DNA of 64,000 bases from Latilactobacillus sakei subsp. sakei DSM 20017 = JCM 1157 (GTDB lineage Bacteria; Bacillota; Bacilli; Lactobacillales; Lactobacillaceae): NCBI RefSeq assembly GCF_002370355.1, contig NZ_AP017929.1, positions 1,550,001 through 1,614,000 on the forward strand, written 5' to 3'. The notes beneath the pieces are model-generated. The model did not search any database and was not told the origin of the DNA. It worked only from the letters and a program-made list of their open reading frames with translations. Positions 31,415-63,400 of the stretch are shown here, in pieces; position 1 is the stretch's first letter, and every line of letters begins with the position of its first letter. A program made the position numbers and the translations under genes.

Positions 31415-31777
31415 ACAAAAAAAGCCCTCTTCACGTTTACACGTCAAGAGGGCGATCAATCGCGGTTCCACCTCAGTTTTTTTGTTTACTTCACAGCAAA
31501 CAACTCTACTAGTTTTAGACCAATAAAAAAAGTCCCCTCGGATTACTCCAAGAGGACGAATATTATCGCGGTTCCACCTCAGTTTAATAAACAACTCACA
31601 TTGCTTAAACTTATGTAGTTTCTAAAACTACAGCGATAACGGGCTAACGGATTATCTTACTTCGTTCAGATAATCAACTCACGGATGTGCCACTAGTTTC
31701 GAAGGGCTGATTTACACCATACCTCAGCTCTCTGTGCCTTAAAAACTAATTTGGTCCGTTCAACGTTTTAAGTATTG
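31415..31777 (-). promoter_or_regulatory. T-box leader with two antiterminator/terminator modules, before the amino-acid transporter
   Basis: Read on the minus strand, one Stem I (AGAGAGCTGAGGTATGGTG apex) is followed by T-box copy 1 (CTGAGGTGGAACCGCG, 31567-31582) and terminator 1 (stem 31532-31557 plus T-run). Then comes a second, identical 16-base T-box (31461-31476) and terminator 2 (stem 31424-31453 plus seven T). Only about 46 bases separate terminator 1 from T-box 2, too few for another Stem I. The base CAC at 31687-31689, followed by A and a TCCGT/ACGGA helix, fits a histidine specifier. Confidence 0.88.
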
Positions 31778-41524: not shown

Positions 41525-41756
41525 CAAAAAAGCATTCCTCACAATAGGACGAATGCTTTTTCGCGGTACCACCTAAATTAGGACTAGACTAGTCCCCAAC
41601 TCATGATTTGTTAACGAACGAAATGGTCCGGTTAGCCCTACTAAATTTCAGGTTAACAGCTCACAAGCTACCGATTAATTGGTCATTGGAAGACGTCTCA
41701 GCCATGCATCTTCTCTCTAAACTAGTCCAATATTAATCGCTCTTGTTCAACGCGTT
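41525..41756 (-). promoter_or_regulatory. T-box leader of valS (valine)
   Basis: On the minus strand TTAGGTGGTACCGCG (T-box) precedes the terminator AAGCATTCGTCC...GAGGAATGCTTTTTT. Stem I shows the ATTAAT/ATTAAT helix, GGCTG apex and lower helix ACAAG/CTTGT. The bases GTA (41669-41671) followed by G lie exactly in the specifier loop and read valine. Confidence 0.92.
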
Positions 41757-41762
41757 GTTAAT

Positions 41763-56921: not shown

Positions 56922-57524
56922 ATGACAAACTTATTCGATTTACAACAACAACGCCGTTCAATCTACGCTTTAGGTCAAAACATCGACTTAACTGAAGCTG
57001 AAGTTTCAGAATTAATCTTCAAGACAATCAAAGAAACACCAAGTGCTTTCAACGGCCAAGGTTCACGTGCAGTTATTTTATTCGGTGAAGCCAACAATAC
57101 TTTGTGGAATGATATTACAGCAAGTGCCTTAAAACCATTAACACCCGCTGAATACTTCCCTAATACACAAGCTAAACTAGCATCATTTGCTGGTGGTGTC
57201 GGCACAATTCTGTTCTTCGAAGATCAAGATATTATCAAGGGCTTCCAAGAAAACGTGCCATTATATGCTGAAAACTTCCCAGTTTGGGCAGAACAATCAA
57301 ATGGTATGGCACAATACGCAACATGAATGGCACTTGCTGAACAAAATATCGGTGCTAACTTGCAACATTACAATCCAGTCATTGATGAAGCAGTTGCTGC
57401 TAAATGGAATATCCCATCAAACTGGAAACTTCGTGCTCAAATGCCATTTGGCTCAATCGAAAATCCAGCAGATGCTAAGGAATACGCAACTGTTGAAGAC
57501 CGTTTCACAACATACAATAAATAA
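56922..57524 (+). pseudogene. Nitroreductase family gene interrupted by one in-frame TGA
   Basis: The frame reads 134 codons from the ATG at 56922, meets TGA at 57324-57326 and continues in the same frame for 65 codons to 57524. Together they make a normal oxidoreductase of about 200 residues. RRSIYALGQNIDLTEAEV and SAFNGQGSRAVILFGE lie before the stop. After it come MALAEQNIGANLQHYN and WNIPSNWKLRAQMPFG. Family members have Trp at the stop position (QYATW-type), so a single TGG-to-TGA change explains it. Codons downstream look undamaged. Promoter, operator and terminator are still present. A sequencing error or readthrough cannot be excluded. Confidence 0.85.
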
Positions 57525-57852: not shown

Positions 57853-57881
57853 TTTACAGGACGCTATCAACACGTTATCAT
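57853..57881 (+). promoter_or_regulatory. Promoter of the preQ1-riboswitch operon
   Basis: TTTACA (57853-57858), 17-base spacer, TATCAT (57876-57881). Start of RNA is about 57888, ahead of a CAAGCG/CGCTTG hairpin (57901-57921). Confidence 0.6.
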
Positions 57882-57921
57882 GAAATGGTGCATTTGAAAT
57901 CAAGCGCCTAAGCCCCGCTTG

Positions 57922-57958
57922 GACTGGTTCGGAAACTTCCCAGAATAAAAAACTAAGG
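57922..57958 (+). promoter_or_regulatory. PreQ1-I riboswitch
   Basis: The P1 stem CTGG (57924-57927)/CCAG (57940-57943) encloses the loop TTCGGAAACTTC. It is followed by AATAAAAAACTAAGG, the nearly invariant A-rich tail of class I preQ1 aptamers, which folds back as an H-type pseudoknot (loop Cs with tail). The pattern GGTTC...AACTTCCC...AAAAAACTA is the class consensus. No terminator follows and the ribosome site AAGGAGG is 10 bases downstream, so control of translation is more likely. Confidence 0.85.
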
Positions 57959-57980
57959 ATCTCAAGGAGGTTAGAAATAA

Positions 57981-58955
57981 ATGCAAACTCGCAAAATTAT
58001 TATTGATTGCGATCCAGGCATCGATGACACTCTCGCGTTGAATTTGGCCATTCAATCGCCTGAAGTAGAAGTCGTTGCTTTAACGATTGTTTGCGGCAAC
58101 GTCCCCGTCGAAATTGGCGTCGACAATGCCTTTAAATGTCTAGAACGACTCGGTCGACTAGACATCCCGGTCTACGCTGGTGCGGCCCAGCCGCTCAAGA
58201 AGACCTTTGTTAGTGCTCAAGATACACATGGTATGGATGGTTTGGGCGATAGTCATATTCCCCGCCAAACGACTACCAAGGCCGCTGAGCAATCGGCAGC
58301 CGATTTTTTAGCGACGACTTTTAAGGCACCTTGTGATATTAGTATTATCGCACTCGGGCCACTGACCAACATTGCGACCGCGCTAACATTAAATCCCCAA
58401 TTGGGGGCCAATTGTGCGCGGTTCGTTTCGATGGGTGGCACCTATAAAAGTCATGGTAATTGCTCCCCAGTGGCGGAATTTAATTATTGGAGTGATCCGG
58501 AGGCTGCTTTGGCGGTCTATGAACACCTCAATCAGAAAATCGAAATGATTGGCTTAGATGTCACTCGTGAGATTGTCTTCACGCCCACCTTGTTAGCTTA
58601 TTGTCAGCGGATCAATCCTGAAGTTGGTGACTATTTAGCCGCTATTACGCAGTTTTATTTTGATTTCCACTGGCAATATGAACACATCATCGGCTGTGTC
58701 ATTAATGATCCGCTCGCAGTCGCCTATTTCATCGACCCGACACTTTGTCAGGGCTTTGAAAGCTACACCACTGTCGAAATAACCGGCATCAGTATTGACC
58801 AAACACTGGTGGACCGCTTCGACTTTTGGCACCGTCCTATTAATAGCCTCATTTTAACTGAGGTAGATACAAATCGTTTCTTTGAACAGTTTTTGACCGT
58901 CGTTTTAAATGCACAGGCTTCAATCATTAAAACGGACTTAAAAAAACTCAGATAG
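57981..58955 (+). CDS. Nucleoside hydrolase, riboswitch-linked (predicted queuosine-type salvage)
   Basis: A 324-residue member of the inosine-uridine nucleoside hydrolase superfamily, which splits the N-glycosidic bond. The calcium site DCDPGIDDTLAL is at residues 9-20, with the following VYAGAAQPL, HGMDGLG, ALGPLTNIA and the late NDPLAVAYFIDP. The second half lacks nothing obvious. The preQ1-I riboswitch just upstream and the ECF S-component just downstream suggest that its substrate is a 7-deazaguanine nucleoside such as queuosine, as for the QueK-type hydrolases described in clostridia. This substrate is inference. The fold alone would only say purine or pyrimidine nucleoside. AAGGAGG precedes the ATG. 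Confidence 0.85.
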   Translation: MQTRKIIIDCDPGIDDTLALNLAIQSPEVEVVALTIVCGNVPVEIGVDNAFKCLERLGRLDIPVYAGAAQPLKKTFVSAQDTHGMDGLGDSHIPRQTTTKAAEQSAADFLATTFKAPCDISIIALGPLTNIATALTLNPQLGANCARFVSMGGTYKSHGNCSPVAEFNYWSDPEAALAVYEHLNQKIEMIGLDVTREIVFTPTLLAYCQRINPEVGDYLAAITQFYFDFHWQYEHIIGCVINDPLAVAYFIDPTLCQGFESYTTVEITGISIDQTLVDRFDFWHRPINSLILTEVDTNRFFEQFLTVVLNAQASIIKTDLKKLR

Positions 58956-58967
58956 GAACAACCTTTA

Positions 58968-59513
58968 ATGAAAAAATTTAAAACGCGCCATCTAACAATT
59001 ATCACCTTAGCAATCGCCTTAAATTACGTTGGCAGTAACATTGCGCTCGTCTTACGGTTCCCAATTTACCTCGACAGTATTGGGACAATCCTTGCCGGTG
59101 CGTTACTGGGACCCTTAGCTGGCGCATTAACGGCGACTGCCAGTAGCGTTCTTAGTGGTATTACGACTGACTTATTCGCGCTATACTATTTACCAGATGG
59201 CCTTTTAACCGGCTTACTAGCAGGTTGTTTTTTATACCAACATCAACGTAGTAAACGCGAAATTCCGTTAGTTGCCATTGGCGTTGCTTTGCCCGGCACT
59301 GTCGTTAGTTCACTGATTACTTATTTCCTATTCCACGGTATTACGTCTTCAGGTTCCAGCATGATTGTTCAACTACTCAGTGGCCTCGGCCTCAATCAAT
59401 TCGCGAGCATCACGCTTGTCCAAGCTGGAACTGATTACTTGGACCGCTTGTTGGCAATTGTGATTGTGACCCAAGTTTGTTACCACCTCAAAAAACAAAT
59501 CGCCACACTCTAG
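58968..59513 (+). CDS. ECF transporter S-component, predicted for a queuosine precursor
   Basis: This 181-residue membrane protein has about six helices and the S-component layout. LDSIGTILAGALLGPLAGAL (near 27-46) is a known S-component block, with small-residue helix faces (AGALTATASSVL) that contact EcfT. The ligand-binding part is not diagnostic. It starts 12 bases after the nucleoside hydrolase and is under the same preQ1 riboswitch, so it probably imports preQ1, queuine or the nucleoside. The shared EcfA/EcfA'/EcfT module is not in the window. Confidence 0.85.
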   Translation: MKKFKTRHLTIITLAIALNYVGSNIALVLRFPIYLDSIGTILAGALLGPLAGALTATASSVLSGITTDLFALYYLPDGLLTGLLAGCFLYQHQRSKREIPLVAIGVALPGTVVSSLITYFLFHGITSSGSSMIVQLLSGLGLNQFASITLVQAGTDYLDRLLAIVIVTQVCYHLKKQIATL

Positions 59514-62650: not shown

Positions 62651-63400
62651 CTATTGTAAATGAACGCCTTTGTCAACGTAGATAATGTCACCAGTCACAC
62701 CGGTTGCCATATCACTGAGTAAGAACCCAGCGACATTCCCAACTTCTTCAATCGTGACTGATTGACCATCAACAGTTCGTTTTTCTGATTCTTCTAATAA
62801 TGAACGGAAATCTTTAACCCCGGTCACTGCGAGTGTCTTGATGGCCCCTGCAGAAATGGCATTAACGCGAATTTGATCAGCGCCTAAATCTCGTGCTAAA
62901 TAGCGAACACTAGCTTCTAATGATGCTTTGGCGATACCCATCACGTTGTAGTTAGGAACAGCGCGTTCTGAACCAAAGTAAGTCATTGTCACAATGCTAC
63001 CATTTGGTTTTAAGAGGTCACGACCATATTTAGCGACGGCGATTAATGAATACGCACTGATTTCTTGGGCTAATAAGTAACCTGAACGAGATGTTTCATA
63101 AACCTTACCCTCTAACTCTTCACGGTTGGCATAGGCGATCGCATGAACAATCCCATCAATTTGACCCACTTTAGCTTTAATTTCAGCAAAAGTTTGTTCA
63201 ATTGCGGCATCATCGCTGACATCACATTCAACCAATAAGCTTGTTTCGGGGACAAATTTTGACAAACTATGTTTAATTCGGTCGTTTTGGTAGGTATAAA
63301 TAACCTCCCCACCAGCTTGTGTAATTGCTTGTGCACATCCCCACGCGATACTTCTTTGATTAGCAACGCCCATCACTAGGATTTTCTTTCCATTTAACAC
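62651..63400 (-). CDS. fabI: Enoyl-ACP reductase (NADH) FabI
   Basis: FabI (249 residues) carries out the last step of fatty-acid elongation. The Rossmann start is KKILVMGVANQRSIAWG. The catalytic pair is Y-x6-K in YNVMGIAKAS, and ISAGAIKTLAVTGV is the typical substrate loop. Triclosan acts on this form of reductase. It follows accA by 23 bases. No FabT site was seen since the cluster start is outside the window. Confidence 0.96.
   Translation of the reverse strand: MLNGKKILVMGVANQRSIAWGCAQAITQAGGEVIYTYQNDRIKHSLSKFVPETSLLVECDVSDDAAIEQTFAEIKAKVGQIDGIVHAIAYANREELEGKVYETSRSGYLLAQEISAYSLIAVAKYGRDLLKPNGSIVTMTYFGSERAVPNYNVMGIAKASLEASVRYLARDLGADQIRVNAISAGAIKTLAVTGVKDFRSLLEESEKRTVDGQSVTIEEVGNVAGFLLSDMATGVTGDIIYVDKGVHLQ

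Follow-up and report, generated by a model that had tools for sequence, protein, structure and literature searches.

Architecture of the locus

The window, the whole 64-kb stretch of Latilactobacillus DNA analysed here, carries a preQ1-I aptamer followed on the same strand by a nucleoside hydrolase gene and the gene of an ECF transporter S-component. The features are as follows.

57853-57881, plus strand: promoter-like hexamers, TTTACA-17-TATCAT, with 10 of 12 matches, at a density near chance
57918-57962, plus strand: preQ1-I aptamer, RF00522, 48.9 bits (gathering cut-off 39; E 6.7e-7 for the window times 4227 families)
57959-57971, plus strand: predicted Shine-Dalgarno-sequestering hairpin, AUCUC (57959-57963) with GAGGU (57967-57971), from folding
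57964-57970, plus strand: Shine-Dalgarno sequence AAGGAGG, from the sequence
57981-58955, plus strand: nucleoside hydrolase, QueK-like, with Asn242 where group I enzymes have the leaving-group His; 324 aa, PF01156 297 bits (cut-off 34.2)
58968-59513, plus strand: ECF transporter S-component, QrtT-like; 181 aa, PF12822 44.7 bits (cut-off 30.7)
31549-31772 and 41542-41759, minus strand: two T-box leaders elsewhere in the window, from an Rfam scan of the window

The initial annotation had placed a class I preQ1 aptamer ahead of a two-gene operon and had called for a covariance scan against the Rfam PreQ1 model; in that scan the element scored above the gathering cut-off (48.9 vs. 39 bits). It is one of two preQ1-I sites found with RF00522 in the 1.94-Mb genome, the other of which (C1:837607; locus L001) precedes a QueT gene (PF06177, 110.7 bits). 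The promoter proposed upstream of the aptamer fared less well: a hexamer pair is indeed present, but such pairs occur in the stretch at close to chance density (7 found vs. 4.0 expected, s.d. 1.7).

Because the hydrolase start codon lies 19 bases 3′ of the aptamer, the window leader has no room for a terminator. Both computed alternative folds of this leader pair the Shine-Dalgarno sequence, and folding does not indicate an ON state. Of 91 leaders examined, 44 matched the short-leader pattern. An anti-Shine-Dalgarno 5-mer follows the aptamer in 40 of the 44 and pairs in 40/40; since the pattern itself favours pairing, this agreement is supportive only. One pair of the sequestering hairpin is exchanged among U-A, U-G and C-G in the short leaders. 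Three of the remaining four carry GUCUC, which by eye pairs with one G-U, and one (G007) does not fit. Streptococcal and many clostridial leaders appear longer by eye, and termination may be possible there.

An intact hydrolase of the inosine-uridine type, as had been claimed, is borne out by the PF01156 score (297 bits) and the motif DCDPGIDD. The AlphaFold model has a mean pLDDT of 89, with low values around the loops at 81-90, 151-170 and 231-240, and solved nucleoside hydrolases match it with E down to 2e-28 in a Foldseek-type structure comparison. The calcium-site residues D9, D11, D16 and D243 are invariant among 16 hydrolase sequences. In a quick tree, the nearest neighbours of the window hydrolase are those of Latilactobacillus graminis and L. 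fragifolii.

The second protein was likewise correctly called an ECF S-component, both by PF12822 (44.7 bits) and by structure. Its AlphaFold model (mean pLDDT 89) consists of helices throughout, and the 22 top-ranking PDB entries are without exception ECF S-components (FolT, ThiT, RibU, PanT, BtuM and others), with TM scores of 0.49-0.68, Foldseek probabilities of 0.69-1.00 and a best E of 0.011, none reaching 0.001 or less. The protein does not reach the threshold of the NCBIfam CD3073 family (65 vs. 180 bits). The 64-kb window yielded a single EcfA-like ABC match and none to EcfT.

Conservation of the switch and the pair, with and without QueL

An operon of this kind, preQ1-queK-qrtT-queL, is known from Clostridioides difficile (Yuan et al. 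2019, as described in PMC11477304 and PMC11570991), and a role in Q synthesis or salvage was suggested in 2013 for iunH, which occurs in the preQ1 regulons of many Firmicutes (PMC3766115, as accessible). The window shares with C. difficile a preQ1-I switch, a hydrolase and an ECF S-component in the same order, and the kind was known before the window was analysed.

We surveyed 121 Lactobacillaceae genomes, counting preQ1-I places at E ≤ 0.001. There are 69 such places in 55 genomes, and 46 of the places exceed the Rfam cut-off. QueT comes first behind 54 of the 69 (by BLAST to the L001 protein), a member of the window hydrolase clade behind 14 (12 over the Rfam cut-off), and one has no gene behind it. 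Hydrolase orthologues occur in 15 of the 121 genomes (at least 45% identity and at least 309 bits; the next best match has 169 bits), directly behind a preQ1 switch in 14; the S gene adjoins the hydrolase in 15/15, split over two frames in G007. By comparison, 0 of 267 other hydrolase matches stand behind any of the 69 places, a count uncorrected for genome relatedness. Clade membership, the conserved operon and the conserved riboswitch are direct observations.

The fifteenth member (G016), which has no intact switch, was considered as an exception to the pattern and rejected as such, as a 43-kb prophage splits its aptamer. The two halves lie about 43 kb apart on contig C28 (approximately 92.93-136.1 kb; L082, L089), and the two junctions have a 17-bp word in common. 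The insertion carries an integrase gene (PF00589) at one end and, at the opposite end, a gene for a phage peptidoglycan hydrolase (PF05382). The 69th preQ1 place is the stranded other half of this aptamer, and the riboswitch has apparently been used as a phage attachment site.

QueT under preQ1-I control resembles the window locus in its switch, but it is a transporter without a hydrolase and a different S-component. An SDR-like ORF lies within 3 kb after 24 of the 54 preQ1-preceded QueT genes (e.g. L028, L088, L093, L096, L098, L103, L105); the underlying listing has 25 sites, one of which is the G007 hydrolase site overlapping that genome's QueT operon. A small MTFEE...GWGG gene also follows some preQ1-QueT operons in Lactobacillaceae.

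A wider scan took in 84,980 species with a single genome per species, and the best 80 of 455 loci were examined; at least five of these (L210, L211, L249, L250, L263) had already appeared among the family genomes, and some species are repeated. Among these 80, the S gene is next to the hydrolase in every case, and 75 have a preQ1-like pattern upstream. Of 13 loci tested with Rfam at the curated cut-off, 11 agree, the exceptions being L275 and L279. Of the five loci without the pattern (L238, L271, L275, L279, L280), the last four were scanned with Rfam preQ1 and gave no match even at E 0.5; by eye, L271 and L275 resemble diverged aptamers, and L279 and L280 (Butyrivibrio) do so less clearly. 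G262, a clade member outside the best 80 (53% homologue), had no Rfam preQ1 match. Close homologues of the pair in Enterococcus, Streptococcus and Clostridia, again among the best 80 of 455 loci, contradict the earlier view of a salvage variant particular to lactobacilli. Two plasmids also carry a preQ1 switch with the pair (L306, L307): that of Lacticaseibacillus paracasei is conjugative, and that of Enterococcus faecalis was typed as non-mobilizable. The unit can thus move as a cassette.

What follows the pair differs between hosts. The third gene in the best 80 of 455 loci is QueL in 8, an SDR on the same strand in 10, an SDR on the opposite strand in 2 and neither in 55, with the contig too short in 5; QueL and SDR occur together in 0/80. 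We identified QueL from the third-gene protein of L261, which matches PDB 6p78, 'Queuine lyase', with E 1.6e-80; the downstream products in the 8 loci are 67-99.6% identical to the L261 protein (tblastn). These clostridial orthologues of the window pair, hosted by clostridia or represented by MAGs, have QueL as their third gene, as in C. difficile, so that the pair belongs to the QueK-QrtT kind. In contrast, neither QueL nor SDR lies within 2.5 kb in any of the 52 Lactobacillales loci that could be assessed among the best 80 of 455 (a further 3 had contigs that were too short), and the pair in the window has no QueL beside it either. We recognised no description of the QueL-less form in the literature searched, and we make no claim that it is unpublished.

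Two other searches found no further example of the complete operon: phylum-wide, preQ1 matches occurred in 33 of 398 genomes (42 places listed), and the 29 loci read held no queK-qrtT-queL operon (L189 and L196 are partial and off register), while a plasmid survey found QueL in a single record, from Fusobacterium vincentii, where the surrounding 5 kb gave no hydrolase match. An early candidate for QueL was TIGR04100, a radical SAM family represented close to the hydrolase of G262; it was dropped because a 229-aa CX4CX2C protein from Lachnospirales matched 6p78 instead.

The window hydrolase shares 57% identity with the QueL-adjacent hydrolase of Clostridium sp. chh4-2 (L261), and all 8 QueL-linked hydrolases fall in the same 78-row clade of the quick tree. 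They are scattered within it, and one (L258) is sister to the Streptococcus-Enterococcus-Latilactobacillus group (SH-aLRT only, no bootstrap), a position which suggests that QueL was lost from the line leading to that group.

An SDR at QueL's place in Clostridia is a candidate non-radical replacement. It is found on the same strand in L262, L265, L266, L269, L273, L277, L278, L283, L285 and L286, and on the opposite strand in L279, L280 and, outside the 80 loci, L151. We rejected the idea that the queT-operon SDR of Lactobacillaceae and the SDR of the clostridial hydrolase-S operons are one orthologue (24% identity), and partial matches of the SDRs (29-30% over 70-91 residues) to an enoyl-ACP-reductase-like ORF of the window (62651-63400, PF13561) were set aside as ordinary SDR kinship.

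Queuosine genes of the host

The initial annotation reported no radical SAM lyase and no synthesis genes nearby, and proposed a genome search for tgt, queA, queG and queL. The first part holds in that QueL is not adjacent, but the genome does have tgt (interrupted), queA and queG, together with the preQ1-preceded QueT; queH was not found at the family cut-off. QueL was not found either: the three radical SAM (PF04055) matches in the genome were identified as HemW, PflA and NrdG. The PF04055 model recovered only 2 of 3 QueL proteins tested, and we take QueL to be likely absent from the genome as judged from its sequence.

As assembled, tgt of the window strain is interrupted at codon 50 by a TAA in frame (L084:3862-3864; G000 C1:96861-96863), whereas four genus mates have an open frame. 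Given this interruption, the strain may not be running the Q pathway.

All 15 hydrolase-bearing Lactobacillaceae genomes contain tgt and queA, with queG in 7, queH in 1 and neither of the last two in 7. Across the 121 genomes, queA is present in 91, and over the cut-offs queG is present in only 20 and queH in 17; many Lactobacillaceae seem to be without a known epoxyqueuosine reductase.

The TGT pocket reads GGLSVGE in 15/15 hydrolase-bearing genomes, which is the preQ1 type. TGTs that use queuine (q) typically read GG[LS][AS]G, from which the preQ1 type differs, and the Bartonella TGT, with a preQ1-type GGLAVG pocket, uses q at high concentration (PMC11570991, as accessible). The pocket conflicts with the earlier proposal that the hydrolase releases the base for tRNA exchange, and it makes direct loading of queuine into tRNA doubtful, if conceivable in view of the Bartonella enzyme. 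The locus resembles Chlamydia-type direct salvage, which relies on a q-specific TGT, in that queuine would be used as such, but the pocket of the window type (GGLSVG) does not read as a q pocket.

The leaving-group position and the substrate

Across 8 QueL-linked, 13 SDR-linked and 52 Lactobacillales hydrolases, 58 positions are invariant, including the calcium site, N160, E166, N168 and N242. The QueL-linked and QueL-less hydrolases differ only at columns 33, 114 and 261 (at least 75% in each group), all of which lie outside the three active-site stretches compared. That the same active-site residues are invariant with and without QueL argues for the same substrate. By analogy with the clostridial system, from which both the substrate and the direction of control are taken, we consider the locus likely to be a queK-qrtT unit for queuosine salvage that is repressed by preQ1 and lacks queL.

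The same invariants weigh on a rival account, in which the pair of the Lactobacillales takes up preQ1 riboside and hydrolysis yields preQ1 in one step, making QueL needless. It would explain the preQ1-type TGT pocket (15/15) and the missing QueL match at once, and preQ1 is what the riboswitch senses. Nevertheless, we regard it as unlikely, as the active-site invariants are common to QueL-linked and QueL-less hydrolases and we know of no established use of free preQ1 riboside as a nutrient.

The position that sets the clade apart is the residue before the last calcium-site Asp. Group I hydrolases (RihA, YeiK, Crithidia fasciculata IU-NH) share with the window clade the fold, the calcium-site Asp residues, Asn160, Glu166, Asn168 and, nearly always, His83. 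Unlike them, the clade has Asn at position 242, where the leaving-group His would be expected and where RihA has it in the alignment, and a signature resembling FYxxFHWxxExxxGCVINDPLA. The Asn is found in 73/73 of the QueL-linked, SDR-linked and Lactobacillales sequences. Among 62 distinct hydrolases, which were best-scoring matches rather than a random draw, 19 have Asn at this site (the 15 from Lactobacillaceae, G262, G473 and two from clostridial hydrolase-S operons), while the other 43, including two paralogues from the same genome, keep His. G473 has an adjoining S gene as well.

According to the accessible parts of PMC8910321, the leaving-group His of group I hydrolases is involved in passing a proton to the departing base, and Gardnerella hydrolases are also without it. 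For a 7-deazapurine, which has no N7, an acid at this site would be useless, so that Asn fits such a substrate; the room of the lost His may be taken by the 7-substituent of 7-deazaguanine. Two clostridial hydrolase-S operons (L153, L156) have the same Asn with no preQ1 match and a uridine-phosphorylase-like gene alongside (229 of 280 bits in L153; by eye in L156), and Asn alone is therefore no proof of a deazapurine substrate. If the proposed role is correct, the change from His to Asn would serve as a sequence mark for 7-deazapurine nucleoside hydrolases in a family whose substrates are often unknown.

That the pair merely scavenges pyrimidine or purine nucleosides in general and stands under a preQ1 switch incidentally would suit its fold, one shared with YeiK and other ordinary group I hydrolases, and the related L153 operon, which has a pfkB-family sugar kinase besides its uridine-phosphorylase-like gene, but this is highly improbable given 14/15 clade members against 0/267 other hydrolase matches behind a preQ1 switch, the QueL carried by some operons and the loss of the leaving-group His, among the 62 compared, in the clade and its nearest S-linked kin only.

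Queuosine salvage is well supported as the role of the locus, in line with the earlier proposal of a preQ1-regulated salvage unit; the hydrolase resembles QueK and the S-component QrtT. In the mechanism we envisage, the aptamer would leave the ribosome-binding site open when preQ1 is scarce; the S-component would then dock on a shared ECF module and import a queuosine-type nucleoside, from which the hydrolase would cut the ribose off the 7-deazaguanine base. The unit thus probably imports queuosine and removes its sugar. Genera of the Lactobacillales such as Latilactobacillus, Lactiplantibacillus, Enterococcus and Streptococcus would, if this is true, take up finished queuosine and not only preQ1, and the step from queuine to tRNA in Lactobacillales would become a sharp question. 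One tentative answer, which we rate as possible rather than probable, is that queuosine reaches tRNA by a path bypassing QueL: the SDR would replace QueL in Lachnospirales and related Clostridia, and Lactobacillales would use an enzyme encoded elsewhere or a preQ1-type TGT that tolerates queuine.

Beside the unit in the window lies a nitroreductase gene (56922-57524) with an in-frame stop (57324-57326), whose counterpart in L210 and L211 encodes 200 aa.
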